Source of the DNA: Gammaproteobacteria bacterium
Lineage (GTDB): Bacteria; Pseudomonadota; Gammaproteobacteria; Acidiferrobacterales; Sulfurifustaceae
Direction of reading: 5' to 3'
Assembly: GCA_016199745.1 (NCBI GenBank)
Contig: JACQFZ010000029.1
Location: forward strand, 1-64,000
DNA: 64,000 nt
Part shown: positions 5,082 to 43,423 of the stretch, in pieces
Numbering within the stretch: position 1 is the stretch's first letter
Layout of the letters: each line of letters begins with the position of its first letter
Position numbers and translations under genes: made by a program
Notes under the pieces: generated by a model
Told to the model about the DNA's origin: nothing
What the model saw: only the letters and a program-made list of their open reading frames with translations
The model's database searches: none

Positions 5082-6389
5082 ATATCACCCTCATCCACCG
5101 GCGCTAAATCGTCTTCCGTTACTCCGGACTCACGTTTAAAGCGTCTGCTTACCATTCTCGGGCCGGCACTGCTCCTGGCCGGGGTAACGGTCGTCTTGAC
5201 GGCATTCGCCGCGACCCTGGGTTTTTACCGCACCGAGATGCTGATAATCGCCGCCGCGGTTACCGGTGCCGCGCTCGTCTTCGCCACGGTCCTGCTTTAT
5301 CGGCAAGCGGCGCAACAGCGCACCGCCAAGCGCACACTGGACGATGTGGAAGCGCGGATCGGCGGCATCATTAACTCGGCGATGGATGCGATCATCACCA
5401 TCGATCGCCATCAACACATCGTCCTGTTCAACGACGCCGCCGAACAGGTGTTTCGTTGGCCGCGCGCGGCGATGATCGGCCAGCCGCTCGACCTATTACT
5501 GCCGGCGCGCTTTCGCGACCTGCACCAGCAACACGTTCAGCGTTTCGGCGACATCGGCGCCACATCACGCCGCATGGGGGCGAATACCATCCTCACCGGT
5601 CTACGCGCCAACGGCGAGGAATTCCCAGTGGAAGCGTCTATCTCGCAGTTCGGCCAAGGCAAGCAAAAACTCTACACGGTGATCTTGCGCGACGTTACCG
5701 AGCGCGTAAAAGCGGAAGACGCGTTACGCCGCTCGAAGGAAGAGTTGCGCGAATTGGCGGCGGCCGCCCATCAGTTGCGCGAACAAGAAAAACGCGCGAT
5801 CGCACGCGAGCTGCACGACGAGTTGGCGCAGGCGTTGACCGGCCTCAAAATGGACGTCGCCTGGATCAAGGACAAGCTACCGGCACCGCCGCCGGAGATT
5901 GTGAATAAACTGCAAAACATGGAGTTATTGCTCGACGACACCGTCGCCGCCACCCGGCGGATCTCCGCCGACCTGCGTCCGATGATGCTCGACGACCTCG
6001 GTTTGGTTCCGGCGATCGAGTGGCTGGTGCAAAACTTCATCGAGCGTACCGGCATCCATTGTGAGTTCATCCTCACCGACCCCCATCTCGAATTGCACGA
6101 TCCGCACGCCACCAGCCTATTCCGCAGCCTGCAGGAATCGTTGACCAACATCGGCAAACACGCCAACGCCGGAAACGTCAACGTCACGCTGGCGAGCACC
6201 GACGACACCGTGACGCTCAGCGTGCGCGATGACGGCGTCGGCTTCTCGCTGCAATCGCCGCGCAAACCCAATTCCTATGGTCTCATCGGCCTGCGCGAGC
6301 GCGCCTATCTGCTGGGCGGCACGGCAACGATCGAAAGCCGCCCCGGCGAGGGAACTTGCATCGAGGTCCGGTTACCATTCACCTTATGA
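5073..6389 (+). CDS. PAS-domain sensor histidine kinase, NarX/HisKA_3 type
   Basis: A 438-residue membrane kinase. Two transmembrane helices (about 25-50 and 55-76) are followed by a PAS domain (about 90-210, with DAIITIDRHQHIVLFNDAAEQVF and a PAC-like VILRDVTERV end), a HisKA_3 dimerisation domain with the phospho-acceptor in ARELHDELAQ (His 248), and a HATPase domain with N-box ESLTNIGKHA and G-box DDGVGFS. The ATG at 5073 is chosen because the upstream ATG at 5043 gives no homology. The stop overlaps the start of the response regulator (ATGA), so the two form an operon and a cognate pair. The PAS signal is not evident; no heme- or FMN-binding signature is obvious. Confidence 0.88.
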   Translation: MNQISPSSTGAKSSSVTPDSRLKRLLTILGPALLLAGVTVVLTAFAATLGFYRTEMLIIAAAVTGAALVFATVLLYRQAAQQRTAKRTLDDVEARIGGIINSAMDAIITIDRHQHIVLFNDAAEQVFRWPRAAMIGQPLDLLLPARFRDLHQQHVQRFGDIGATSRRMGANTILTGLRANGEEFPVEASISQFGQGKQKLYTVILRDVTERVKAEDALRRSKEELRELAAAAHQLREQEKRAIARELHDELAQALTGLKMDVAWIKDKLPAPPPEIVNKLQNMELLLDDTVAATRRISADLRPMMLDDLGLVPAIEWLVQNFIERTGIHCEFILTDPHLELHDPHATSLFRSLQESLTNIGKHANAGNVNVTLASTDDTVTLSVRDDGVGFSLQSPRKPNSYGLIGLRERAYLLGGTATIESRPGEGTCIEVRLPFTL

Positions 6390-7033
6390 TACGAGTCATC
6401 ATCGCCGATGATCACACCATCGTGCGCGAGGGTTTGAAACAACTGCTCGCCGGCGCCGACTTCGAAATCGTCGGCGAGGCGCGCGACGGCCACGAAGCGA
6501 TCGAATGCGTGCGAACGCTCGCGGCGGACGTGTTGCTGCTCGATATGTCGATGCCGAAAAAAAGCGGCATCGAACTGATCAAACAGATCAAGAGCGAAAG
6601 ACCGAAGCTGCGCGTGCTCGTCTTGAGCATGCACGAAGAGCAACAGTACGCCATCCGCGCGATCAAGGCCGGCGCCTCCGGCTACCTGACGAAAGACAGC
6701 GCCTCGGCGCAACTGATCTCGGCGATCCGCAAGGTCGCCGGCGGCGGCGCGTTCATCAGCAGCGCCGTCGCCGAGCAGCTCGCGCTCGGCGCCATGCCGC
6801 AAACCGAAGGCCCGCCGCATACGGCGCTGTCCGATCGCGAGTACCAGGTGTTTCAGCTGCTGGTCTCCGGAAAATCCGTGACCGAGATCGGCGAGCAATT
6901 GAATCTGTCGGTCAAGACGGTGAGCACGCACAAGGCGCGGCTGATGGAGAAGTTGGGCCTGACCAACCAGACGGAGTTAGTGCGTTACGCCATCGCGCAT
7001 CGTCTGGTCGATGACCCGAGCGCTGGCGGCTAG
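6386..7033 (+). CDS. NarL/FixJ-family response regulator
   Basis: 215 residues: receiver domain (about 1-118) with acidic pair IIADDH, phospho-acceptor Asp 53 in LLLDMSMP, and the conserved lysine in YLTKDSAS; then a GerE/LuxR helix-turn-helix (about 148-210) with LSDREYQVFQLLVSGKSVTEIGEQLNLSVKT as its core. It overlaps the kinase stop by four bases. It is a DNA-binding output protein and the likely partner of the upstream kinase. Its TAG stop is the first three bases of TAGTGTCC, a sequence shared with the MITE termini described elsewhere. Confidence 0.9.
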   Translation: MIRVIIADDHTIVREGLKQLLAGADFEIVGEARDGHEAIECVRTLAADVLLLDMSMPKKSGIELIKQIKSERPKLRVLVLSMHEEQQYAIRAIKAGASGYLTKDSASAQLISAIRKVAGGGAFISSAVAEQLALGAMPQTEGPPHTALSDREYQVFQLLVSGKSVTEIGEQLNLSVKTVSTHKARLMEKLGLTNQTELVRYAIAHRLVDDPSAGG

Positions 7034-7197
7034 TGTCCTAAAACACCCCTCATCCCGCCAAAGGCATGAAACCGATGGGCGACATCGATTCCAACTGGAA
7101 AGAAGAACGAGAACTTCCCGTCGTCACACCACATTCGCTCTGTCTGGCGTTATACTGCTTTGCCTGATCAATGTAGCAGTCTGCGAAAAATAGCGTC

Positions 7198-7551
7198 GTG
7201 ACCCATCACCGCCAGAAAATTCAATTCTTTCGGCAACGTATTCCATCGTTCGAATGCAAACCCGGATGCCACGATTGCTGTGGGCCGGTGACCGCCTCTA
7301 CCGAAGAGATGGCAAGGCTTCCCGTCAAGAGCGATGACGAACACGAGACGGCGCTTGCCGATCTCCGCTGCCCCCACCTCGGTGAGCATGGATGTACCGT
7401 CTATGAAGAGCGGCCGCTGATCTGTCGTTTATTCGGAACGACGCCGCGACTCCCGTGCCCGGTCGGCAAGCGGCCGGAGACGATGATCGACTCGCAAGTA
7501 GAACAGCAAATTTACCGATTTTTTGCGAGCACGCGTCATGTGTTGGTTTGA
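7198..7551 (+). CDS. YkgJ-family cysteine-cluster protein
   Basis: 117 residues with the YkgJ pattern: FECKPGCHDCCGPV near residue 20, then CPHLGEHGCTVYEERPLICRLFG and PCPVGK. The clustered cysteines are thought to bind zinc or an iron-sulfur centre; no reaction is established for the family. The start is GTG at 7198; the preceding 160 bases contain nothing convincing. It is not clearly in an operon with the response regulator upstream or YoaK-like gene downstream. Confidence 0.85.
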   Translation: MTHHRQKIQFFRQRIPSFECKPGCHDCCGPVTASTEEMARLPVKSDDEHETALADLRCPHLGEHGCTVYEERPLICRLFGTTPRLPCPVGKRPETMIDSQVEQQIYRFFASTRHVLV

Positions 7552-7624
7552 GGTGGCAAGAGTCGAGAACTAGAGGTTGCCCCATCCTGCAGGCTTCATT
7601 TTCAACTACCAACGCCGTCTTTCC

Positions 7625-8374
7625 ATGCCGATAAACTATCTCGCCCAACTCACCGCCCGCGAGCGAACCGCGCGGACGAATCTTCATCTGGGGGTATCGC
7701 TGGCGTTCGTCGCCGGCGCGCTGAATGCCGGCGGGTTTTTGGCGATCGGGCAATACACGTCGCACATGACCGGCATTGTTTCCGCGGCGGCGGATAATTT
7801 GGTGCTGGGCAATATCGCCTTAACGGTTGCCGCGGCGCTGTCGCTGCTGTCATTCATTAGCGGCGCGGGAACGACGGCGGTGCTGGTCAGCTATGCGAAA
7901 CGGAACTCCGGGAAGAACATCTACGTCGTTCCATTGCTGATCGAAGCGGTGTTACTGCTACTCTTTGGCATTATCGGCGGTACCTTACGACTGCACGAGA
8001 TCGTCAGCATCTCGTTAACGGCGATCCTGCTTTGCTACGTGATGGGTTTGCAAAACGCGCTGGTAACAAAGGTATCCAACGCCGAAATTCGCACGACACA
8101 TTTAACCGGTCTCGTTACCGACATCGGTATCGAGCTGGGTAAGTTGATTTACTGGAACCGCGGCCATCGCGTCTCCCAGCAGGCGGTGCGAGCCAACCGG
8201 GTTCGGCTACGGATTCACAGCTTGTTGGCGATGGCGTTCTTTTTCGGGGGCGTCGCCGGCGCGTTCGGATTCAATCATGCCGGCTTTGCATCGACGATTC
8301 CGCTGGCGGTGGCACTGGTAGTCATGGCGTTGGCGCCGGCGTTCAGTTCACGGCGGCCGGTGGCAGCAGAATGA
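7625..8374 (+). CDS. YoaK/DUF1275-family membrane protein
   Basis: 249 residues with six predicted transmembrane helices. The family signature is evident: AFVAGALNAGGFLAIGQYTSHMTG near the start, LLCYVMGLQNALVTKVSNAEIRTTHLTG in the middle, and VTDIGIELGK after it. ATG 7625 (MPINYL) is preferred over an in-frame ATG 48 bases upstream because family members start close to this point. DUF1275 proteins are inner-membrane proteins of unproven function, probably transporters. Confidence 0.88.
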   Translation: MPINYLAQLTARERTARTNLHLGVSLAFVAGALNAGGFLAIGQYTSHMTGIVSAAADNLVLGNIALTVAAALSLLSFISGAGTTAVLVSYAKRNSGKNIYVVPLLIEAVLLLLFGIIGGTLRLHEIVSISLTAILLCYVMGLQNALVTKVSNAEIRTTHLTGLVTDIGIELGKLIYWNRGHRVSQQAVRANRVRLRIHSLLAMAFFFGGVAGAFGFNHAGFASTIPLAVALVVMALAPAFSSRRPVAAE

Positions 8375-8390
8375 AACAGAGTTGTGGTGA

Positions 8391-8487
8391 GCAAGCGTAG
8401 CGTGCGCCATGCGCACGATTACTCCATCTCCCCGAAACTGTCATCCTCATGTTGTAGGGACGTGCGCATGGCGCACGTTACATTTGC
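8391..8487. repeat. pair of inverted REP palindromes (BIME-like)
   Basis: Two copies of the REP unit built on CGTGCGCCATGCGCACG stand in opposite orientation at 8391-8418 and 8459-8487, separated by about 40 bases. The same unit flanks both RAYT transposase relics near 30.0 and 31.2 kb, so this is a transposase-free unit of the same family. A partial CTCTCCC hairpin follows at about 8489-8515. Confidence 0.8.
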
Positions 8488-13395: not shown

Positions 13396-13491
13396 AGTTT
13401 GCGCGAGTAGTAAGTTGCGAGGAACCGCGGCTGATCGGCAGTGAGTGCTAAAGCACTGATCCCATTAGACGCGTCAGATAACTTACTGATC

Positions 13492-13556
13492 GCCCCGAGA
13501 CTTGTAGCTGCCTCCTAAGCGGTAGGTCGCCGGTTCAACTCCGGCCCGGGGCACCA
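13492..13556 (+). tRNA. degenerate tRNA-Arg(CCU)-like sequence without a D arm
   Basis: The 3' half is a good tRNA: anticodon loop CTCCTAA (anticodon CCU) on a five-pair stem with two wobbles, T arm GCCGG-TTCAACT-CCGGC, acceptor strand CCGGGGC, discriminator A and encoded CCA. The 5' strand GCCCCGA pairs with the acceptor at six of seven positions. Only about eight bases separate it from the anticodon stem, so the D arm is missing and total length is 65 rather than 76. It is probably non-functional, or the 3' end of a tRNA left by an integrative element. It ends 3 bases before the ccmA start. Confidence 0.5.
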
Positions 13557-13559
13557 ATA

Positions 13560-14225
13560 GTGGCCGTGGAGTCCTGTTTGGCGCATCGTCTCGATATCGT
13601 TGATCTCAGCTGCACACGCGGCGATCGGCCGCTTTTTAGTGGGCTAGGTCAGAGCGTTGCTGCGGGTGAGTTGTTGCATGTGGTAGGTAGCAACGGCAGT
13701 GGTAAGACGACGCTACTGCGAACCCTTTGCGGGCTATCGCAGCCAGCGGCGGGGGAAGTCCGTTGGCGCGGTACATCGACGCGAGCGTTAAGCGACACCT
13801 ATCGGCAGGATCTAACCTATCTCGGCCATCTGGACGCGGTTCAAGGCGAGCTCACGCCGCCGGAGAATCTGCATGCGTTAGCGCGGATGGCGGGCGGCAG
13901 CGGCAAAATCGACGAAGCGCTGGAACGCCTGGGATTGACGGCGCACCGCTCCTTCCCGGCAAAGATCCTGTCACAAGGCCAAAAGCGGCGACTGGCGTTG
14001 GCGCGGCTCTTAGTGCTCCAAAAACCCTTGTGGATTTTAGACGAACCGTTTACAGCGCTCGATGCCCGCTCCTGCCGTCTCATGACTGAGCTCCTAGCGG
14101 AACATCTCGCGAGCCAAGGGATCATCGTCCTGTCGTCGCACCAAGACTTCGATATGCCCGGCGCTGTGATCAAACGCATTGATCTCGACCAGCTGCGGCA
14201 CGCTCGGAATCGACCGTCAGCGTGA
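13560..14225 (+). CDS. ccmA: heme exporter ATP-binding protein CcmA
   Basis: 221 residues, an ABC ATPase of System I cytochrome c maturation; with CcmB, CcmC and CcmD it releases holo-CcmE. Walker A is VGSNGSGKTTLL, the signature is LSQGQKRRLALARLL, Walker B is LWILDEPF, and the His loop is VLSSHQDF. The start is GTG at 13560, 3 bases after the tRNA-like sequence; a second GTG two codons on is possible. Its stop overlaps the ccmB start (GTGA). First gene of the plus-strand ccmABCDEG operon. Confidence 0.92.
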   Translation: MAVESCLAHRLDIVDLSCTRGDRPLFSGLGQSVAAGELLHVVGSNGSGKTTLLRTLCGLSQPAAGEVRWRGTSTRALSDTYRQDLTYLGHLDAVQGELTPPENLHALARMAGGSGKIDEALERLGLTAHRSFPAKILSQGQKRRLALARLLVLQKPLWILDEPFTALDARSCRLMTELLAEHLASQGIIVLSSHQDFDMPGAVIKRIDLDQLRHARNRPSA

Positions 14226-14899
14226 GCGGGCTCGTCAGCGCCACCCTTAGCATCGTTCGCCGCGATCTCACGGTCGCACTGCGACGCGCGCAAGACGCGC
14301 TAACGCCGGTCATCTTCTTCGCGATCGTCGTCAGCCTATTTCCGCTCGGCGTCGGTCCGGAGCCGGCAACGTTGGCGACCATAGCGCCGGGGGTGTTGTG
14401 GGTCGCGGCGCTGCTGTCGACGATGCTGTCGTTGCCGCGGATGTTCAGCAACGACTATGCCGATGGCACGCTCGAGCAACTGTTGCTGGCACCGCATCCC
14501 CTATCCGTACTGGTGTTGGCCAAGGTGCTGGCGCATTGGCTACTGACCGGCCTGCCGCTGGTGCTGTTGTCGCCGCTACTAGCGCTACAACTGCAGCTAC
14601 CCGCCGACGCAATCGGCACGCTGACGCTGTCGCTACTCCTCGGCACGCCGGTGCTGAGCCTGCTCGGCGCCACCGGCGTAGCGCTTACGCTCGGGCTGCG
14701 CGGCGGTGGCGTGTTGGTTTCGCTGCTGGTATTGCCACTGTATACTCCGGTGCTGATTTTTGGCGCCGGCAGTGTCGCGGCGGCCGCCACCGGATTAGAT
14801 ACGGAAGCTTATCTCTCCCTGTTGGGCGCATTCCTGGTGCTGGCCTTGAGCTTTGCGCCTTGGGCCACTGCGGCGGCACTACGCACGTCGTTGGATTAA
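14222..14899 (+). CDS. ccmB: heme exporter permease CcmB
   Basis: 225 residues, six transmembrane helices. It reads VRRDLTVALRRAQDALTPVIFFAIVVSLFPLGVGP near the N-terminus, then FSNDYADGTLEQLLLAP, the conserved CcmB cytoplasmic loop. It is the membrane partner of CcmA. The GTG start overlaps the ccmA stop by four bases, showing translational coupling. Length is normal for the family. Confidence 0.92.
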   Translation: MSGLVSATLSIVRRDLTVALRRAQDALTPVIFFAIVVSLFPLGVGPEPATLATIAPGVLWVAALLSTMLSLPRMFSNDYADGTLEQLLLAPHPLSVLVLAKVLAHWLLTGLPLVLLSPLLALQLQLPADAIGTLTLSLLLGTPVLSLLGATGVALTLGLRGGGVLVSLLVLPLYTPVLIFGAGSVAAAATGLDTEAYLSLLGAFLVLALSFAPWATAAALRTSLD

Positions 14900-14961
14900 C
14901 GGGAGCGAGAACACCCACTCTCTGCCTGACCCGTGTGGTGAAGGGAAGTTGGTGAAAATCT

Positions 14962-15702
14962 ATGTTTCAATCGATACACAACTACGCGTCACCTAAAACG
15001 TTCTATCCCCTCGCCGGCCGCTTGCTTCCGTGGTTTGCCACGGCGACGGTTTTATTGCTCGCCATCGGGCTCTACCAAGGACTATTCGTTGCGCCGCCGG
15101 ATTACCAACAAGGCAACAGCGTACGTATCATGTTCATTCACGTGCCCGCCGCCTGGATGTCCATGTTCGTCTACGTGGTCATGGCGGTCGCCGGCGCCAC
15201 CGGACTCATCTGGAACGTAAAGCTCGCCGAAGTGCTGGCGCGCTCGTGCGCACCGATTGGCGCATCGTTCACCCTGCTAGCGCTTGCCACCGGCTCGCTC
15301 TGGGGCCGACCGATGTGGGGCACCTGGTGGGCGTGGGACGCGCGCATTACCTCCGAATTGATTCTGCTGTTCCTCTACATGGGGTTCATGGCGCTGCAGG
15401 CATCGATCGACGACCCTAAGCGCGCCGCCCGCGCGGCGGCGATTCTGGCGCTGGTCGGCGTCGTCAATATCCCGATCATTCACTTCTCGGTCGAATGGTG
15501 GAACACGCTGCACCAACCGGCATCGGTCGCGCGCATGGGCAAACCGACGATCCATCTAAGCTTGTTAATTCCTCTGCTGTTGATGGCGGCTGCTTTCAAA
15601 ACTTACTTCGTTACCGTGCTGCTCATGCGTATGCGCAACGAAATTCTGCTGCGCGAACGGCACACCTCGTGGGTCACAGACGTCATCGAGAGCAAGGCAT
15701 GA
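14962..15702 (+). CDS. ccmC: heme handling protein CcmC
   Basis: 246 residues, six transmembrane helices. It carries the tryptophan-rich WGTWWAWDARITSE motif and periplasmic histidines (for example in MFIHVPAAW and near HFSVEWWNTLHQ) that present heme to CcmE. The 62 bases after ccmB hold no gene; all later genes in the operon overlap by four bases. The start ATG is clear from family alignment at MFQSIHNYASP. Confidence 0.93.
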   Translation: MFQSIHNYASPKTFYPLAGRLLPWFATATVLLLAIGLYQGLFVAPPDYQQGNSVRIMFIHVPAAWMSMFVYVVMAVAGATGLIWNVKLAEVLARSCAPIGASFTLLALATGSLWGRPMWGTWWAWDARITSELILLFLYMGFMALQASIDDPKRAARAAAILALVGVVNIPIIHFSVEWWNTLHQPASVARMGKPTIHLSLLIPLLLMAAAFKTYFVTVLLMRMRNEILLRERHTSWVTDVIESKA

Positions 15703-15869
15703 ACTGGTCCGACTTCTTCGCCATGGGCGGTTATGCACTCTATGTCTGGGGTGCGTATGGCTTGGCGGTAATTATCTTGAGCGTAAATGTGCTGTTGCCG
15801 TTACGCCGCCGCAAAACCGTACGCCGCCAGCTTGCCGACTACTACCAGCTACAAGACGAATCGCGATGA
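15699..15869 (+). CDS. ccmD: heme exporter small subunit CcmD
   Basis: 56 residues: one transmembrane helix (YALYVWGAYGLAVIILSVNVLLPL) followed by a basic cytoplasmic tail (RRRKTVRRQLADYYQ). The size and the GGYALYVWGAYG signature are typical of CcmD, which tethers holo-CcmE to the CcmAB complex. It overlaps ccmC and ccmE by four bases each. Confidence 0.9.
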   Translation: MNWSDFFAMGGYALYVWGAYGLAVIILSVNVLLPLRRRKTVRRQLADYYQLQDESR

Positions 15870-16312
15870 AGCCGCGCCATAAACGATTGGCGGTCATTGT
15901 CGTCGGCGTCGTTGGCCTGACGGTGGCGTCGCTGTTCGTGCTGAACGCATTCCGCAGTAACTTGGTTTACTTTTATTCGCCAAGCGAGACGCTGGCCGGT
16001 AAGGCGCCGATCAATCGCGCGTTCCGCCTTGGCGGTATGGTGGAAAAAGGCAGCGTACAGCGCTCCAGCGACGGCCTGACGGTCGATTTCGTCGTCACTG
16101 ACTTAAAACAAAAACTGCCGGTGCACTACCAAGGCGTGTTACCCGATTTATTCCGCGAAGGCCAGGGCGTGGTCACGCAAGGCCGGCTCGTTAACGGCCG
16201 CTTCATGGCCGATCAGGTCCTCGCCAAGCACGACGAAAAGTACATGCCGCCCGAAGCCGCTAAAGCGCTTGCCGGCGGATCTTATGTTCCGGGCAAGGAA
16301 CCCTCGAAGTGA
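15866..16312 (+). CDS. ccmE: periplasmic heme chaperone CcmE
   Basis: 148 residues: an N-terminal membrane anchor (about 9-27), an OB-fold, and the heme-binding motif LAKHDEKYMP with His 122, which attaches heme covalently, and Tyr 126. It carries heme from CcmABCD to CcmF. In the usual order ccmF follows; here ccmG follows instead and ccmF is on the opposite strand. Confidence 0.94.
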   Translation: MKPRHKRLAVIVVGVVGLTVASLFVLNAFRSNLVYFYSPSETLAGKAPINRAFRLGGMVEKGSVQRSSDGLTVDFVVTDLKQKLPVHYQGVLPDLFREGQGVVTQGRLVNGRFMADQVLAKHDEKYMPPEAAKALAGGSYVPGKEPSK

Positions 16313-16851
16313 AAAAATTTTTGATTCCGATTGCCGGCTTCGTCGCGCTCGGCGGCCTATTCGTCTACGCGCTGTACCTCATGCAAACCGGCGGCTACAA
16401 CCCGCGCGATATTCCATCGCCGCTGATCGGCAAGCCATTGCCCGCCTTTACGCTGCCGGTGCTGCATGAACCGACACGCACAGTAACGCCGGAATCGCTA
16501 CACGGCCGTGCCTATCTGTTGAATGTTTGGGCATCGTGGTGTGTCGCTTGCCGCCAGGAACATCCGGTCTTGAACGAGCTGGCGCATAAGAAGACGGTGC
16601 TAATCGTTGGCCTTAATTACAAAGATCAGCGCAGCGATGCGCTCGACTGGCTCGACAACTTCGGCAATCCGTACGATCTAAGCCTGGTCGACGCGACTGG
16701 AAGAACGGGAATTGAATTGGGTGTCTACGGGGTGCCGGAGACATTCGTCATCGATAAGAACGGAATCATTCGCTACAAGCACATCGGGCCGGTAACTCCC
16801 GAGTCGCTGGCGCAGGTGTTGCTGCCGAAGTTGGCGGCGCTCAACGAATAG
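16309..16851 (+). CDS. ccmG: thiol:disulfide oxidoreductase CcmG/DsbE
   Basis: 180 residues: N-terminal signal anchor (about 5-25) and a thioredoxin fold with WCVAC (Cys 78 and 81) and the cis-proline segment YGVPETFVIDKNG. It keeps apocytochrome CxxCH cysteines reduced in the periplasm. GTG start overlapping the ccmE stop by four bases. Last gene of the plus-strand operon. Confidence 0.93.
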   Translation: MKKFLIPIAGFVALGGLFVYALYLMQTGGYNPRDIPSPLIGKPLPAFTLPVLHEPTRTVTPESLHGRAYLLNVWASWCVACRQEHPVLNELAHKKTVLIVGLNYKDQRSDALDWLDNFGNPYDLSLVDATGRTGIELGVYGVPETFVIDKNGIIRYKHIGPVTPESLAQVLLPKLAALNE

Positions 16852-16858
16852 CTTTATG

Positions 16859-16974
16859 ACCCCCACCCTAGCCCTCCCCCGCTTCGCCGAGGAGGGAATG
16901 GAGACACGGTAAAGTCAGTCGACATTTGTTGTCCCCTCCCCCGCGCTTTTGCGGGGGAGGGTTAGGGTGGGGGT
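16859..16974. terminator. bidirectional GC-rich hairpin between the two ccm operons
   Basis: Inverted arms starting CCCCCACCCTAGCCCTCCCCC and ending with their complement allow a long stem; within it a second stem is formed by CCCTCCCCCGC and GCGGGGGAGGG around 16934-16961. The plus strand then runs into AAAAAA. It lies exactly where the convergent operons end and probably serves as terminator for both. The right arm also has four G-runs able to form a G-quadruplex. Confidence 0.65.
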
Positions 16975-16988
16975 AAAAAAATCGGCAG

Positions 16989-17858
16989 TTATTTTTTCGC
17001 CGCCCGCAGACGCGCCGCTTCGAGCGCGCGCTGCACTTGCGGTGTGACTTCGCTGTCCGGCGGTAATTCTTTCAACAAGCGCTCCCAATACTGCGCCGCC
17101 TGTTTAAATTTATTTTCCTTGAACGCCACTAAGCCGAGCGTCCACAACGCCGCGGGATGCTTGGGGTTGAGCTTATAAAGCTTACCGAACAACGCCACTG
17201 CCTCAGGATCGGGATTCGCCGGATCGCGCGACATTAAGAATGCGGCGTAGGCGGCGATGATTTCGGGACGGTTCGGCGCGAATCGATAGGCATGCACGTA
17301 AGCTTGGCGAGCATCGTCCGGGCGACCGAGCACTTCATACGACCGGCCGAGTTTGGCCCAGCCTTCAGCGTCGTTCGGATTGTCGCGCAGCTTTTGCTCG
17401 AGGCGTGCCACCATTTGCAGCACCATCGGCGGCATACCGGCGCTCTGCACCGTTTGCGGCTGCGCCAATTGCCCGAACGTTTCGTAATTGATTGCCCAAT
17501 ACAAGCCGGCTGGAACTAGCAACACCAACGCCGCAACGACAACGACAATGACGCTGCGAGTAACGGGCGAACCGGATACAGCCGGCGCCGGTACCTCGGT
17601 AAATTCGTCGAGCTCCTTCAGCGCGCGCGCCAGCTCACCTTCGAGACGCAGGCGCTCGTCGGCGGCGACCGCTGGATCGATATTGGCATCGCCGGTTTCA
17701 ATATCGAGCTCGCGCAATTGCGCCAACAAACGCTCGCGCAATTGCACCAGTTGGTGATACCCCTCGTGGGTTACCGCGGCACCGCGCAAAATCGGGCGCA
17801 CGAGATAAAAAACGGTAACGACCGCGATCAGCGCGACAACGACGATCAACGCAATCAT
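16989..17858 (-). CDS. ccmI: cytochrome c biogenesis protein CcmI (TPR)
   Basis: 289 residues with the start at MIALIVVVALIAVVTVFYLV, which overlaps the ccmH stop (ATGA). The N-terminal helix, a basic cytoplasmic segment with a coiled coil (LRERLLAQLRELDIETGD), a second helix (about 121-145) and C-terminal TPR repeats (DAEGWAKLGRSYEVLGRPDDARQAY) are the CcmI/CycH layout. It presents apocytochromes to CcmF-CcmH at the outer face of the inner membrane. An in-frame ATG far upstream lies inside ccmH and is not used. Confidence 0.9.
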   Translation of the reverse strand: MIALIVVVALIAVVTVFYLVRPILRGAAVTHEGYHQLVQLRERLLAQLRELDIETGDANIDPAVAADERLRLEGELARALKELDEFTEVPAPAVSGSPVTRSVIVVVVAALVLLVPAGLYWAINYETFGQLAQPQTVQSAGMPPMVLQMVARLEQKLRDNPNDAEGWAKLGRSYEVLGRPDDARQAYVHAYRFAPNRPEIIAAYAAFLMSRDPANPDPEAVALFGKLYKLNPKHPAALWTLGLVAFKENKFKQAAQYWERLLKELPPDSEVTPQVQRALEAARLRAAKK

Positions 17859-18304
17859 GGTTCGTCCTGGCGGGCGGCGCGCACGCGGGCGGCGTCTTCT
17901 TCTGATAACTTCGGCGACGGCGCCAACGGCGTGCGCTGACGATGCCGCAAATACACCAATGCCGAAGCGCCAAGCATGACCAATACCAACAACGGACCGA
18001 CCCACACCAGCAGTCCCGGTCCGCGCGCCGGTGGTTGCATCAGCACGTAGTCGCCGTAGCGATCGACGAAGTAATTGATGATTTCCTGCCGGCTCTTACC
18101 GGCAGTAATTTGCTCGCGGATGATTTGGCGCATGTCACGCGCTAAATCGGCGTCGGATTCGGCGATCGGTTGATTTTGGCAAACGGTACAACGCAGCTCT
18201 TTGGCGATGTCGAGCATTTGCCGTTCGAGCGGATCTTCGTTGACCTCGGCGGCAAACACCGGCAGCAACATTAAACAAAGCACGAGCCCGAAGACGCGTA
18301 TCAT
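17855..18304 (-). CDS. ccmH: cytochrome c maturation thiol protein CcmH
   Basis: 149 residues: signal peptide, three-helix domain with RCTVCQNQ (Cys 39 and 42), the SRQEIINYFVDRYGDYVLMQPP signature, then a C-terminal transmembrane helix. It reduces apocytochrome cysteines together with CcmG. It is the short CcmH form, with the TPR part encoded separately as ccmI. It begins directly after the ccmF stop codon. Confidence 0.93.
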   Translation of the reverse strand: MIRVFGLVLCLMLLPVFAAEVNEDPLERQMLDIAKELRCTVCQNQPIAESDADLARDMRQIIREQITAGKSRQEIINYFVDRYGDYVLMQPPARGPGLLVWVGPLLVLVMLGASALVYLRHRQRTPLAPSPKLSEEDAARVRAARQDEP

Positions 18305-20290
18305 TTATTTGGCGCCGACGGCGGCGGCGGTAACAGCCGCAGACGCGCGTTGCTTGCGCCGACCGCTCAACGACAGCACCAAACCCGACAACACGATGCC
18401 GCCGCCGATCCAAATGAACTGCACCAATGGATTGACGTAGGCATGCACTGCCCAGCGCCCGTTGTCGACCGCCTCGCCCAATACCACATACACGTCGCGC
18501 ACCGGCGTCGAGTCGATGCCGGTTTCGTTCATCGGCATTTCCTGGCGCGGATAACGGCGGCGCTCCGGCGAAACATAACGACCGGAATTGAGCAGCGCGA
18601 TACGCGCCTCGATCATTTGATAATTGGCCCGCTGACCGGCACTCACCCCTTCGAAACGCAAGCGCTCGCCGGCGATTTCGAGCACATCGCCCGGCTTCAT
18701 TACCACCGACGCCTCGCTACGGAATAAGCCGGAGCCCACCAGGCCGAGAGCGATCACCACGATACCGAGATGCACCACCATGCCGCCATAGTGCCGACGA
18801 TTACCGAGCACGGTTTTGCCGGCCGCTCGCAGCCACGGTTCATTAAGCTGCACCCGCCGCTGGCGCAGGGCACGCACGTAGTCGATGATCACGGCGGCGC
18901 CGGCCAACAACGCCAGCCCAACGCCCGCTGGCGCCGTCCAGTGGCCCTGCGGCAGCAACACGACCATGGCGATGGCCGCGGCCACACCGACCGCGATCGG
19001 CAACAGCATTCGCTGTTTTAGGCGCTGCACATTCGCCTTACGCCATGGTACCAACGGGCCGATCGCCATCAGTAATAAGACGCCCAGAAAAATCGGCACC
19101 ATCACGGCATTGAAATACGGCGCGCCGACGGTGAGCTTGGCGCCGGTGAGCGCCTCGAGCGCCAACGGGTACAACGTTCCGAGCATGACGACCAAACAAG
19201 CGGCGGTGAAAATGACGTTGTTCCAAACGAATAATGATTCGCGCGACAACAGCGACGTAATCGACTCTTCCGCCTGCTGATAGCGCCCGCGCAACATGAA
19301 GATGCCGAACGATGCCGCCAATACGGTCGTCATGAACGCCAAAATGTAAGCACCGCGACCCGGATCAACGGCAAAGGCATGCACCGACGACAACACGCCG
19401 GAACGCACTAAAAAAGTGCCGAGCAACGATAACGAAAAGGTCGCGATGACCAAGAATATGTTCCACGCGTGGAGCATTCGCCGGCGATCTTGCACCGTGA
19501 TCGAATGGATCAACGCCGTACCGAGCAGCCAAGGCATGAACGAGGCGTTCTCCACCGGGTCCCACGCCCAATACCCGCCCCATCCCAGCTCGTAATAGGC
19601 CCACCAACCACCGAGCAGAATACCCACCGTAAGAAAGCCCCAGGCGACCAACGCCCAGCGGCGTATATGACCGATCCACAGCTCGCTACGCCAGCGCGTC
19701 AACAATGCCGCGATCGCAAACGCAAACGGCACCGAGAAGCCGACGTAACCGAGATACAACATCGGCGGATGGATCACCATGCCGGGGTCTTGCAACAGCG
19801 GATTGAGATCGCGTCCGTCCTGCGGAATCGGTAGTAACCGCTCGAACGGGCTCGACAAGAATAAGATTAAACCGAGGAAGCCGACGACGAGCGCGCCCTG
19901 CACGGCGAGGATGACCGGCAGATGCTGCGGATAATGTTTACGTCCATGCCAAACCACCAACAGTGTGTAGAGGCTCAACACCCACACCCATAAATAGAGT
20001 GAACCCTCGTGCCCGCCCCACAGCGCCGCTACCTTATAAAAGAGCGGTAACTGCGTATTGGAGTTGATGGCGACATAAAGCACTGAGAAGTCGCTGGTCA
20101 TGAACGCATGGATCAACGTCGCGCCGCCCATACTCAGCAAAACGAATACAGCGACTGCTGCATTCACGCTCACAGCAGCGACATTTGGAACCCGGAGCAC
20201 ACGCGCCACTAACGGCGCCAGTGCCTGCATAGCGGCAACGACAAGCGCCAAGAAAACTGCGAAGTGGCCTAGCTCGATGAGATACAACAA
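18305..20290 (-). CDS. ccmF: heme lyase subunit CcmF
   Basis: 661 residues and about 14-15 transmembrane helices. It contains the WWD-type loop GGYWAWDPVENASFMPWLLGTALIHS, the PPMLYLGYVGFSVPFAFAIA segment and several periplasmic loop histidines. It ligates heme to apocytochrome with CcmH and CcmI. It leads the minus-strand ccmF-ccmH-ccmI operon, convergent to ccmABCDEG, instead of its usual place between ccmE and ccmG. Confidence 0.95.
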   Translation of the reverse strand: MLYLIELGHFAVFLALVVAAMQALAPLVARVLRVPNVAAVSVNAAVAVFVLLSMGGATLIHAFMTSDFSVLYVAINSNTQLPLFYKVAALWGGHEGSLYLWVWVLSLYTLLVVWHGRKHYPQHLPVILAVQGALVVGFLGLILFLSSPFERLLPIPQDGRDLNPLLQDPGMVIHPPMLYLGYVGFSVPFAFAIAALLTRWRSELWIGHIRRWALVAWGFLTVGILLGGWWAYYELGWGGYWAWDPVENASFMPWLLGTALIHSITVQDRRRMLHAWNIFLVIATFSLSLLGTFLVRSGVLSSVHAFAVDPGRGAYILAFMTTVLAASFGIFMLRGRYQQAEESITSLLSRESLFVWNNVIFTAACLVVMLGTLYPLALEALTGAKLTVGAPYFNAVMVPIFLGVLLLMAIGPLVPWRKANVQRLKQRMLLPIAVGVAAAIAMVVLLPQGHWTAPAGVGLALLAGAAVIIDYVRALRQRRVQLNEPWLRAAGKTVLGNRRHYGGMVVHLGIVVIALGLVGSGLFRSEASVVMKPGDVLEIAGERLRFEGVSAGQRANYQMIEARIALLNSGRYVSPERRRYPRQEMPMNETGIDSTPVRDVYVVLGEAVDNGRWAVHAYVNPLVQFIWIGGGIVLSGLVLSLSGRRKQRASAAVTAAAVGAK

Positions 20291-20613
20291 GGCGTCGTCA
20301 AAACCGTTAGTGAGAGCGGGACGATTCTACCCGCCTGCGCGAGTACGGCAACAAAGAATTTTTTCAGACCTAGCTTGGGGCATCGGAAAAAATCGCGTTA
20401 CATTTTTATTAACAGAAATTGTGGATAACTATGTGGTTAAGTCTGTTGCGCCTAGGCGAAGTCCGAGTAAGCAACGCATCCGCATTAGATTGAACATTTT
20501 TTAAACAGAAGCAGGCGGAACAAAAACAATATGTTGCATAATTCTCTGCGCTGTAATAGTACTGCAACATTCGACCACAAACGCAATTAACGGTTGTGTA
20601 AAACCGATCTCGC
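20291..20613. other. AT-rich intergenic region between lptG and ccmF
   Basis: About 320 bases, clearly lower in GC than either side. It must hold the ccmF promoter and the end of the lptFG transcript. No convincing ORF, RNA gene or repeat was seen. Confidence 0.5.
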
Positions 20614-32668: not shown

Positions 32669-35143
32669 ATGGCAGAGAAAAATCCCGATTCGAAAAAGAG
32701 AGCCGCTGGCTTTCAATCTCAACCCATGGAGCAATACGACGACACCCATCGAGGCCACATCGACCAGCCGCCGTGGAATAACCCTCTCGCAACGATCTAC
32801 ACCAACCCTGACGATGTCAGCAGGCCTGTTAATCGACGCTCTCAACGACAATACGGTCTTGTTGAAAGACTGATTGTCGTTCTTACCGTTTGCTTTCTTG
32901 TAGGAATATTTGCGGTTCTCTGGCCGCAGCCCACTCGGGCAGAAGACCGGGGGCCCATTGCGGCTACCGGGCACGGCGGTTTTTTTGACCAAGACGGGCG
33001 CCAGATTCCGTTGACGTTAGGTTTTGCCGCCGAAGCGCAGGCCTGGTACCGCAACAAGCTGTTGTCGACTTTGCCAACGGCCAAGAAGAGCGAATTTGCT
33101 GCCTATGAAAAGCGCCTGCGTGGCGGGCTCAACGCTGACGGGCAGGATGGGCTTGTGTTGCAGCACCAAGCACTTGAATGGTTGTTGGCCAACACGCGAT
33201 CAACCGATCTCAAGCTGCAAACGGCAAGCATGCTTCGTGCGCTTCGGTACGAAATGAACTGGAAGCTGCCCGAGCAAAACGACTCGAAGGCGGTTGACAG
33301 ACTTGAGCCATTCACTCCGCGCGCCGATGTCCTAAAGCGACTAGAGTCCCTACCCTTCAAGCCCGGTGGTGGCGTGCAGCTGCTATCAATCACCACCAAC
33401 TCAGGGCAGGCCTACATCAATGAATGCATGGCCGCCGGTGTGCCGATTCCACCCGCGATCAATCTGATGGACCCCGCTGGACTGGCGGGCTGGAAATCTC
33501 AGGGCTTCATTCCGACGACGGATCAATTCATCGTTGGCACACCGGCGGAGGTGCGTACCTACCGGAGCGCTTCACCGGAGGGCATGTGCTACGCCTTACC
33601 CCGATACACCGATGCCACGCTGAGCACGGTCAAACTTGACGGTGTCATCTGCATGGGCAAGCAAAGTTCCAAAGTCTGCTTTTGGGACAATCAGTGGACT
33701 GTCGGCGGCACGGTGCAGTCCTTTCAGTTCCCGGCAGGCACGCAGATACCGATTGGCGTACCCAGTACACCCGGTGGCAAGTATCAAGCCGGAGGAAAAG
33801 AAATTGAATTCGGCCCCGGCGGCATCTGCACGGATTGTCACGCCGGAGAAAACCCGTACATCATTCACCCCAAGAGCAATCTCGCCACCAGCGGTGCGGC
33901 GGTATTGTGGGAGAGTCTTTCGCAGGCGCCACAAAATTTACCGTCGATGCCAGTCAACCGTTATGACCCGCTCGTAGGGGCATCGTGGCCGCAGAACCAA
34001 TTATCACAGGCGGGTTCCACCGTCCCCGGCGTGTGCAGCGGTTGCCACGTCAAAGGTGGCACCGGGCGCTTTCCGCATCTGTCGAATGAAATTTCGCAAT
34101 ACTGCAACACCGTCCTCGGGCAGGCGATCACCAGAACCATGCCACCGGGCAGCCCCGGCAGCGCCGCGGTTGCGGCCAACGCGTTCAAAAATGCCTGGTG
34201 CGGTGGTCCACCCGACGCAAGCTCTGCCGACGCCGGCGATCCGCACATCACAACCACCAACGGCATCAATTACGATTTTCAGGCGGCTGGCGAATTCACG
34301 GCCCTGAAGAACGAGGACACCCGCTTTGAATTGCAAACCCGCCAGAGTCCTGTGCTCACGACCTTTACTCCCGGCGCCAACCCCTACACCGGACTGGCAA
34401 GCTGCGTGAGCCTAAACACGGCGGTAGCCCTGCGCGTCGGCAAGCACCGCATCACTTACCAACCGGCCGGCGGAGCGTTTACCAGTGCCGAGCGGCTGCA
34501 ACTGCGCGTAGACGGCACACCCGTCAACCCGGCGAGCGGCGTCAACCTGGGCAGCGGCAACGTCATCAACAAAAGCACAACCGGTGGTGAGATCGACATA
34601 CGCCTGGACGACGGTACGCGCGTAGTCGTCATTCCGCTCTTCTGGGCATCACAAGGCTACTGGCACCTGGACGTACAGGTGTTCAACACGCCTGCGCGCG
34701 AAGGTGTGATGGGCCCGATTCTGGCGACCGACTGGTTACCGCGCGCGCCCGATGGCGCAAGCTTTGGTCCTAAACCGGCGTCGCTGCTGGACCGGCACGT
34801 GCTGCTTAACAAAAAATTTGCCGACGCCTGGCGCGTGAGCACTAGTACCAGCTTGTTTGACTACGCCATCGGTACCAGCACCGCCAACTTCACCGACACC
34901 AACTGGCCACCCGAAAGCGGCAAGCCTTGCACCAAAACCACGGTGGGCGGCCCGCACCCGAGGGTGAAAGAGCCGCGCCCCGACATGGCCAGAAAAGCTT
35001 GCCTGGGCATCAAGGACAAAGCCATCTACGCCAACTGCATCTTTGACGTGACGGTGATGGGCGACACCATAGCCGCCAAGGGCCACAAGCGGGCAGCCAA
35101 GCTCAAAGCGTTGGCCACGCAGACACCGTTGGTGAATCAATAA
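32669..35143 (+). CDS. exported protein with two CxxCH heme sites and a von Willebrand type D domain
   Basis: 824 residues from MAEKNPDSKKRAAGF, with GGAG before the ATG. A 60-residue polar N-terminus precedes a signal-anchor helix (LIVVLTVCFLVGIFAVLWP). The central part has CTDCH (387-391) and CSGCH (456-460), two c-type heme attachment motifs. From residue 523, GDPHITTTNGINYDFQAAGEFTAL is the classic start of a VWD domain, followed by FELQTRQSP and about 200 residues of beta-rich sequence. Heme attachment would need the ccm system in this window. Neither partner nor reaction is known; surface electron transfer or adhesion are possibilities, not conclusions. It stands alone between repeat-rich gaps. 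Confidence 0.8.
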   Translation: MAEKNPDSKKRAAGFQSQPMEQYDDTHRGHIDQPPWNNPLATIYTNPDDVSRPVNRRSQRQYGLVERLIVVLTVCFLVGIFAVLWPQPTRAEDRGPIAATGHGGFFDQDGRQIPLTLGFAAEAQAWYRNKLLSTLPTAKKSEFAAYEKRLRGGLNADGQDGLVLQHQALEWLLANTRSTDLKLQTASMLRALRYEMNWKLPEQNDSKAVDRLEPFTPRADVLKRLESLPFKPGGGVQLLSITTNSGQAYINECMAAGVPIPPAINLMDPAGLAGWKSQGFIPTTDQFIVGTPAEVRTYRSASPEGMCYALPRYTDATLSTVKLDGVICMGKQSSKVCFWDNQWTVGGTVQSFQFPAGTQIPIGVPSTPGGKYQAGGKEIEFGPGGICTDCHAGENPYIIHPKSNLATSGAAVLWESLSQAPQNLPSMPVNRYDPLVGASWPQNQLSQAGSTVPGVCSGCHVKGGTGRFPHLSNEISQYCNTVLGQAITRTMPPGSPGSAAVAANAFKNAWCGGPPDASSADAGDPHITTTNGINYDFQAAGEFTALKNEDTRFELQTRQSPVLTTFTPGANPYTGLASCVSLNTAVALRVGKHRITYQPAGGAFTSAERLQLRVDGTPVNPASGVNLGSGNVINKSTTGGEIDIRLDDGTRVVVIPLFWASQGYWHLDVQVFNTPAREGVMGPILATDWLPRAPDGASFGPKPASLLDRHVLLNKKFADAWRVSTSTSLFDYAIGTSTANFTDTNWPPESGKPCTKTTVGGPHPRVKEPRPDMARKACLGIKDKAIYANCIFDVTVMGDTIAAKGHKRAAKLKALATQTPLVNQ

Positions 35144-41024: not shown

Positions 41025-43238
41025 TCAATCGCACGACGGTGCAAACTCGTTGTTAAGCGCGGTCACCTTGTAGTTCGCATCGATCGTCACTAATCGATTA
41101 TCCGACCATTGCGTGACGCTGCAGCTCACATAGGAAGGGCCATAAGACCAACTGCCGTCTACCACTCGATTACCGCGAACGATATAACGACTGCCACCGC
41201 CGTCGTGCACACGAATGGTGTAACCGCCGCCCATAAACAAGTTGTCGTATAACTCGGCTTGCTTCGATTCGTTGGCCATGAATACGTTCGACGTCGAATC
41301 TTCTGCAAGGCGCTGGTCGATGGTGTTGTGGCGAATGACGTTATTGATCCCGGCCTCGTACCCTTGTATGCCATCGGAGTGATCGCCTGGACTGGAACAG
41401 AGGATGACGAATGAATCTTCGATGGTCACATCGTTGTGTGAAATACGGAATCCGTCACTCGTATTACGAATGTACAAACGTTTGGCGGTAAACCGGCCGG
41501 CACCGACGGCGCTCGTGCTGTTACATCCGGACGGCGGCCCGATCGTGCTGTCGGTCACGGTGTACCGGAACGGATTGCCGCCATTCCAATTGCCAATCTC
41601 GCCGTAGACCTCGCTATTACGAATAACGACGCCATCGGCAGCGACGGTAATACTGCCGGTGACACGTTTGTTTTCGAAGACTTGGCCCGGCGTCGATAGC
41701 GTGACATCGCCGTTGATCGTCGTCAGCGCCGTGCCCGCCGGCACGCCGGTGCAGCTCGGTGTCGGATACGCCGGTAACGCGCACGAACTCGGGTCTGGGG
41801 GTGTCACGCGTGCTACCGATACCGCGACTATCGCGCTCGACGTCATGCGCCCGGCCGCATCGTAAGCATTTGCGCTGAGCCTATGGTTACCGACACTGGC
41901 GCTGGCGGTGTCCCAGCGGTAAGTGTACGGCGGCGTGACATCGGCACCGAGCGAACGACCGTCGAGTAAGAACTCAACGCGGGTGACGCCGACATCGTCC
42001 CAGGCCGCGGCTTCCATCGATACCGTTCCTTGAACCGTCGTGTTATTGGCCGGCGCTGGCAGCGTTACCGACGGCGCGGTGGTGTCGACCAGGCCGGGCG
42101 CATAGAGGTTCACTTCGGTCAGACTGTTCCAATCATTGACGCTATTGCCATGACCGATGTAACGCAGATAACGGGCGTCGACATCGGCGAAATCGAAACC
42201 TTCGATCTCGCGCGTCACTCCGCTGCTTTCGCCGCGATCGACGACCGTCCAGCTAACGCCATCGGCCGATACCGCAAGATCGAATCGCGCTTTGCGCTGA
42301 TCGCCGTTGTAAAAGCCGATTTTGGCCGAGCCGATCGTCGTCATCTGGCCGAAATCGAACTGTATCCACTGACCATCGCCGACCGCCGACCAACGCGTGG
42401 CGACATCGTTATCGATCGTATTGGCGGGAACATTGCCGTCATCGCTGCTAGCCGTGACCACCCGCACCACGATCTCCGAGGTCGCATCGCGCGGCGTGGC
42501 TGCCACCGGCGCCGAGTTGACGCTTTCGCCGGCGCCGTTCACGGCGGCGACGACGTAGTAATAGCTAACCCCATTGGTAACGCCGACATCGGCAAAGTTC
42601 GTTGCCGCTTGCCCGCTGTTGATGTTGCTGTACGGACCTTGGCGAACGGTGGCGCGTTTAATGTTGTAAGCATCGGCACCCGTAGCCGCCGACCACGCAA
42701 GATTGACGCGCGCATTGCCGGCATCGGCGGTGAGATCTGTGGGCGCTGCCGGAACCTGCGCCACGGCGTAGATATCGACTTCGGTCAAACTATTCCATTG
42801 ACCGACGTTCGGATCGCTAGTGTCGTTTCCGTGGCCGACATATCTGACATACCGCGCTTGCACGGGAATAAAGCCAAACGTCTCCTGTGCCAGCGTCGTG
42901 CCATTGCTCTGCCCGCTGAATACGGTCGACCAGGTCTTGCCGTCCGCCGAGACACCCAGATCGAACCGCGTATGCCGCGTGTTTCCTTTAAAGAAACCGA
43001 TCGCCAAGGCATTGATCTTTTTGATCGACCCCAGATCGAATCGGATCCACTGGCCATCGCCAGCCGCTGACCAGCGTGTGTCGAAATTATTATCGAGCGT
43101 GTCCGCCGGCACATTGCCATCGTGACGACTGGCACTGACCGCGGTGATGGGCACCGGTTGTGCCGCCAATGCAGGCAGATTAAACAGCGACAATACCGCG
43201 GCAAACGGCAGGAGTAACGTGAAGCCGGAGCGGGTCAT
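41025..43238 (-). CDS. secreted multidomain protein: two discoidin, FN3, Ig-like and beta-helix domains
   Basis: 737 residues. Signal peptide (LLLPFAAVLSLFNLPALA), first F5/8-type-C/discoidin domain (about 30-158, with DTRWSAAGDGQWIRFDLGS), fibronectin III (about 162-250), second discoidin domain (about 258-385, with ATRWSAVGDGQWIQFDFGQ), an Ig-like domain (about 392-490, VEFLLDGRSLGADVTPPYTYRWD), and a right-handed beta-helix (about 500-737, with GVVIRNSEVYG and DGFRISHNDVTIEDSF). The binding modules plus a beta-helix suggest attachment to or cleavage of a polysaccharide. No catalytic residues can be fixed. It stands alone. Confidence 0.82.
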   Translation of the reverse strand: MTRSGFTLLLPFAAVLSLFNLPALAAQPVPITAVSASRHDGNVPADTLDNNFDTRWSAAGDGQWIRFDLGSIKKINALAIGFFKGNTRHTRFDLGVSADGKTWSTVFSGQSNGTTLAQETFGFIPVQARYVRYVGHGNDTSDPNVGQWNSLTEVDIYAVAQVPAAPTDLTADAGNARVNLAWSAATGADAYNIKRATVRQGPYSNINSGQAATNFADVGVTNGVSYYYVVAAVNGAGESVNSAPVAATPRDATSEIVVRVVTASSDDGNVPANTIDNDVATRWSAVGDGQWIQFDFGQMTTIGSAKIGFYNGDQRKARFDLAVSADGVSWTVVDRGESSGVTREIEGFDFADVDARYLRYIGHGNSVNDWNSLTEVNLYAPGLVDTTAPSVTLPAPANNTTVQGTVSMEAAAWDDVGVTRVEFLLDGRSLGADVTPPYTYRWDTASASVGNHRLSANAYDAAGRMTSSAIVAVSVARVTPPDPSSCALPAYPTPSCTGVPAGTALTTINGDVTLSTPGQVFENKRVTGSITVAADGVVIRNSEVYGEIGNWNGGNPFRYTVTDSTIGPPSGCNSTSAVGAGRFTAKRLYIRNTSDGFRISHNDVTIEDSFVILCSSPGDHSDGIQGYEAGINNVIRHNTIDQRLAEDSTSNVFMANESKQAELYDNLFMGGGYTIRVHDGGGSRYIVRGNRVVDGSWSYGPSYVSCSVTQWSDNRLVTIDANYKVTALNNEFAPSCD

Positions 43239-43423
43239 GGGTATCGTCTCGATATTGTTTTTAGAGGTAGATAAAATTTCTGCCGAACCAGGGACACCGC
43301 GTGTTTACGCTTTTTACTAACGATGGCGGCCCAACCCTGCTTGAGTCACTATGTACGCAGGTGAGTGCCCATAACATCGGGCGTTGGTTCAAAGAATTTT
43401 TACCGTCACAGGGACAGACAGAA

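Follow-up and report, generated by a model that had tools for sequence, protein, structure and literature searches.

The gene on the forward strand at 32669..35143 of the window, the whole stretch of 64,000 nucleotides that was analysed, encodes a protein of 824 aa in which a diheme cytochrome c-like module is fused to a von Willebrand type D (VWD) module that opens with GDPH, the signature of self-cleavage known from mucin-type proteins. The original prediction described such a fusion, encoded by a solitary accessory gene, and proposed that an exported and possibly polymerising redox protein might result. The domain fusion, the start of the VWD domain, the export signal and the lone accessory position are borne out by the present analysis, whereas the idea of a polymer has little support, and the self-cleavage signature GDPH, which lies where the two modules meet, is the more telling feature and the better lead.

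The reading that is favoured here, and that seems reasonably likely, is that the protein is exported via Sec and that its hemes are attached by System I (Ccm), while the module joined behind the diheme module, VWD-C8-like and of the type seen in FCGBP, RGM and MUC4, probably cleaves itself at the GDPH site. The diheme module would serve as an electron carrier or redox sensor, and the VWD module as the part responsible for attachment or for the binding of a partner. A broader and more tentative proposal is that the diheme cytochrome modules form a new family whose members are combined with varied adhesion-type domains, and that its VWD branch would cut itself and thereby release or loosen an exported redox protein via a mucin-type GDPH site. 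GD/PH autocleavage is known from animal mucins and RGMs, and the prediction is that it should also occur in a bacterial heme protein.

Gene structure, export and heme attachment

According to ORF analysis, translation begins at ATG 32669, with the Shine–Dalgarno sequence GGAGA 6 bases upstream, and the stop codon ends at 35143; full-length orthologs align with the product from end to end. The gene is present as a single copy in its own genome, and all of its features given below lie on the forward strand. The sole strongly hydrophobic stretch of the fusion protein (about residues 64–87) marks the core of a putative signal peptide (residues 65–91; 32861..32941), with predicted cleavage at PTRA/ED and equivalent AxA-type sites in the orthologs. 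This core is preceded by a polar extension of 64 residues (32669-32860) that has no counterpart in the orthologs, including that of Nitrotoga, which indicates that the signal peptide is exceptionally long or that the true start lies further downstream. The N-terminal alpha-helical region (residues 105–232; 32981..33364), recognised from AlphaFold2 and alignment, is common to VWD fusions and to relatives fused to vWA. With a six-row alignment, AlphaFold2 modelling of the full protein gave a pLDDT of 37, being fairly confident at residues 111–200 (about 65–86) and not elsewhere, and modelling of the diheme core gave a pLDDT of 32.

The hemes would be attached by the products of the cytochrome c maturation genes encoded in the window at 13482..20326, of which ccmABCDEG are located on the forward strand and the ccmF/H/I-type genes on the reverse strand. 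The CcmA-type ATPase, CcmB, CcmC, the CcmG-type thioredoxin and CcmF (CcmF_C) were identified by Pfam, while CcmE (HDEKYMPPE) and CcmH (LRCTVC) were recognised by reading sequence motifs, in agreement with the ccm system noted in the original prediction. CcmF is encoded in all seven genomes checked (that of the window and six others), and ResB is absent from all seven.

An operon reading was dropped, as the neighbours of the fusion gene differ in every genome examined, and no conserved neighbour hinting at an electron donor or acceptor was present in the genomes compared. Approximately 6 kb from the fusion gene, the window also encodes a predicted secreted protein of adhesion type (41025-43304), which contains two F5/8 type C domains together with fn3 and bacterial Ig domains.

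The diheme module and its settings

The core of the diheme module (residues 246–515; 33404..34213) comprises two CxxCH motifs and six conserved non-heme cysteines, as defined by a 14-sequence alignment. Heme 1 would be attached at CTDCH (residues 387–391; 33827..33841) and heme 2 at CSGCH (residues 456–460; 34034..34048), the latter in a unit resembling class I cytochrome c. In both motifs, the two cysteines and the histidine are invariant in 14/14 sequences, although identity within the alignment falls to about 28 % and the two middle residues vary. When the mature protein was shuffled, CxxCH occurred on average 0.004 times and two copies were never reached in 20,000 trials, compared with the two that are observed. 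All ten cysteines of the module are invariant in the 14 sequences, except C511 (13/14 in the alignment), and the six that lie outside the CxxCH motifs would form three disulfides.

The conserved His and Met residues of the 14 sequences are limited to the two CxxCH histidines, His400 (33866..33868; His in 13/14 and Met in 1/14) and Met491 (34139..34141; Met in 13/14), which makes the presence of two hemes c plausible. This is the pattern expected if His400 and Met491 were the distal ligands of the two hemes, which would also be ligated by the CxxCH histidines. Since Met491 is located 31 residues past His460, in a TMP motif, it fits a class I cytochrome and is the candidate axial ligand of heme 2. 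Both CxxCH motifs are best described as predicted heme-binding sites, and the assignment of individual ligands to hemes as putative. In a divergent diheme protein (L044:6369-8195 of G1032), Met replaces H400 and KHSAP replaces TMP, so the axial ligands may have been exchanged.

The diheme module as a whole matches no model of Pfam or NCBIfam, and the window protein alone stays under every cut-off, including that of Cytochrome_CBB3 (PF13442; 27 bits). The heme 2 unit exceeds this threshold in two full-length orthologs (30.2 bits in L043 and 28.4 bits in L042). The likeness to class I cytochrome c and Cytochrome_CBB3 resides in this CxxCH...MP unit, whereas the PF13442 family lacks the second CxxCH, the six additional cysteines conserved in the diheme module and its VPIPP/CFWDN region, in which VPIPP, GxCxAL and CFWDN constitute the conserved non-heme part. 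A sequence search of the PDB with the diheme profile returned chance matches only.

The diheme module is not tied to VWD: members of two phyla carry it fused to VWD, fused to vWA or standing alone. In four relatives (L019, L020, L046 and L047), a HYDIN/ASH-type Ig domain and a vWA domain occupy the place that VWD has in the window fusion. In three of these proteins (L019, L020 and L046), the diheme module retains all ten cysteines and the C-terminus is a transmembrane tail; L047 stops at a contig end and covers the second heme only. Stand-alone diheme proteins, which retain the ten cysteines, H400 and M491 but lack VWD, are encoded directly downstream of TfuA in YcaO-TfuA thioamidation-type clusters, on a plasmid of Rhizobium sp. 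TH2 (L009:7194-9040) and in G677 (L031, G677:C41, around 6335-8440). TfuA and YcaO make peptide thioamides (PMC8120280), and the position of the stand-alone forms suggests a possible role in redox tailoring, perhaps as a heme-dependent step in RiPP tailoring. In Rhizobium sp. TH2, the cytochrome gene is separated from TfuA by a 76-aa ORF that could encode a precursor peptide. Among the genomes tested, TfuA is present only in G677, with none in G000, G420, G800, G801, G222 or G339. The window genome has no TfuA, and a TfuA link for the window gene was therefore rejected.

The VWD module and the GDPH junction

The VWD domain (residues 523–700; 34235..34768) begins with GDPHITTTNGINYDF at residue 523, so that GDPH is located 67 residues past the second CxxCH and 136 past the first. 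In the window protein alone, the Pfam VWD match (PF00094) is weak and below the cut-off (E=0.049), while homologs of the module pass it (E=3.6e-16 and 1.1e-11). A profile of the whole VWD module, constructed from ten homologs, matched FCGBP best among PDB sequences (E=1e-13) and the C-terminal domains of RGM weakly. Residues 771–800 (34979..35068) contain a C8-like cysteine pair, C778 and C790, which aligns with the start of the FCGBP C8 domain and for which weak RGM_C and C8-3_MUC4 matches were obtained in homologs. The fusion shares with FCGBP VWD-C8 and the RGM/hemojuvelin VWD a GDPH start, a Gln at His+12 and the order of a VWD followed by a C8-like cysteine pair. It differs from them in being bacterial and single-domain, in having a cytochrome in front, and in lacking both the cysteine that tethers strand 1 and the QGTC cysteine. 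The same VWD module was also observed between an upstream trypsin-like domain and a downstream DUF7450 repeat (L021:6060-9074, G222:C2), in a genome that also encodes a diheme-vWA protein.

The predicted autocleavage site is the bond between Asp524 and Pro525 of GDPH (residues 523–526; 34235..34246). Asp524, Pro525, His526 and Gln538 (34280..34282) have the spacing of their FCGBP counterparts and are invariant in 9/9 VWD fusions, Gln538 also in 10/10 sequences of a wider VWD set. Mutagenesis of FCGBP has demonstrated that autocleavage of the Asp–Pro bond depends on the Asp and His of GDPH, both of which are essential, and that Gln4094, twelve residues past the His and equivalent in position to Gln538, contributes partly (PMC10880436). 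The motif is nevertheless necessary rather than sufficient, since the GDPH of MUC2 was left uncut in one expression system and cleavage is not universal (PMC10880436). On the strength of these conserved residues, spontaneous scission of the GD524/P525H bond is probable once the exported protein has folded, as in FCGBP. In FCGBP, cysteines keep the first strand in place once the bond is cut; the fusion has no clear equivalent of them, and C511, the last cysteine before GDPH, was assigned to the diheme module because it is kept in forms that lack VWD. With no tethering cysteine for the first VWD strand, cleavage would leave the cytochrome either non-covalently held to the VWD module or released. 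A search of openly available papers identified no bacterial GDPH VWD domain and no cytochrome-VWD fusion, which is not proof of absence.

The occasional failure of GDPH in VWD domains to be cut (PMC10880436) leaves some room for an intact redox adhesin, in which VWD would be no more than a stable domain for binding to a surface or matrix, and GDPH could be kept for the stability of the fold. This is rather unlikely, however, given that the nine fusions, which come from two phyla, share every residue linked to cleavage, Gln538 among them, without variation. Covalent or ordered polymerisation driven by VWD, which would yield a polymeric extracellular redox protein, has a very low probability. 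VWD domains help to assemble VWF and the gel-forming mucins, the multimers of which depend on VWD-C8-TIL-E assemblies that contain CGxC motifs and spare cysteines. The fusion has only the VWD domain family in common with these D assemblies and lacks their multimer features: CGxC is absent from 9/9 VWD fusions, no TIL or E domain was detected by Pfam in the fusion proteins scanned, and the mature cysteines fall into conserved even sets (four in the heme sites, six in the cytochrome module and four in VWD). Moreover, the fusion carries one VWD, no further VWD protein was found in its own genome, and disulfide polymers are not formed by FCGBP either, its closest relative of solved structure (PMC10880436).

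The stand-alone relatives bear on a further explanation, in which the diheme module would act as a MauG/MbnH-like oxidase to modify a protein or peptide, and the forms encoded next to YcaO-TfuA would function as enzymes of RiPP tailoring. Diheme peptide-modifying enzymes exist, two stand-alone relatives directly follow TfuA, and the conserved non-heme part of the module could provide a substrate site. An enzymatic function is nonetheless improbable, as CCP_MauG-type profiles match neither the window protein nor any relative scanned, and the tested genomes with VWD or vWA forms lack TfuA. The least credible explanation is a plain disulfide-rich secreted adhesin in which the CxxCH motifs form disulfides or bind zinc rather than heme. 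It would accommodate the ten cysteines of the module and a weak double zinc ribbon match in one relative (E=0.048), but it is at odds with the conservation of a His with each CxxC and of the candidate axial ligands, with the Cytochrome_CBB3 scores of the orthologs, and with the occurrence of Ccm in every genome tested.

Distribution and horizontal spread

The same diheme-VWD architecture was found in eight other genomes, giving nine fusions including that of the window. A scan of 84,980 species revealed full fusions in Ca. Nitrotoga (83 % identical), two Acidobacteriia MAGs (64–65 %) and Lysobacteraceae (54–55 %), as well as a partial fusion that ends at a contig edge in another Lysobacterales MAG. 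Genome sampling added G1340, together with G860 and G985, which belong to the same order as G677 and are taken to be alphaproteobacteria. The fusion was absent outside its own genome in a 194-genome sample of relatives, and the diheme module was present in 4/369 genomes of the class, with that of the window counted. A match in G054 (L002, E=9.9e-4) was discarded, as it falls in unrelated ORFs. Phage and viral collections contained no full relative, although one VWD fragment was found on a viral contig.

In the tree of diheme modules, the VWD fusions form one group (support 86/95), within which Acidobacteriota are nested among Pseudomonadota. This nesting, along with the patchy occurrence and the existence of a plasmid copy, argues for horizontal spread of the fusion. 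The plasmid copy, on Thiothrix subterranea pTSUKu5_27 (L008:16348-18638), is 66 % identical, goes out of frame mid-gene and is annotated as two hypothetical proteins; it is located ~1.3 kb from an annotated recombinase. A further diheme module (L041:6813-8201 of G1008) is interrupted by an in-frame TGA immediately ahead of the conserved KxCxWDN motif, has no C-terminal partner and looks decayed.
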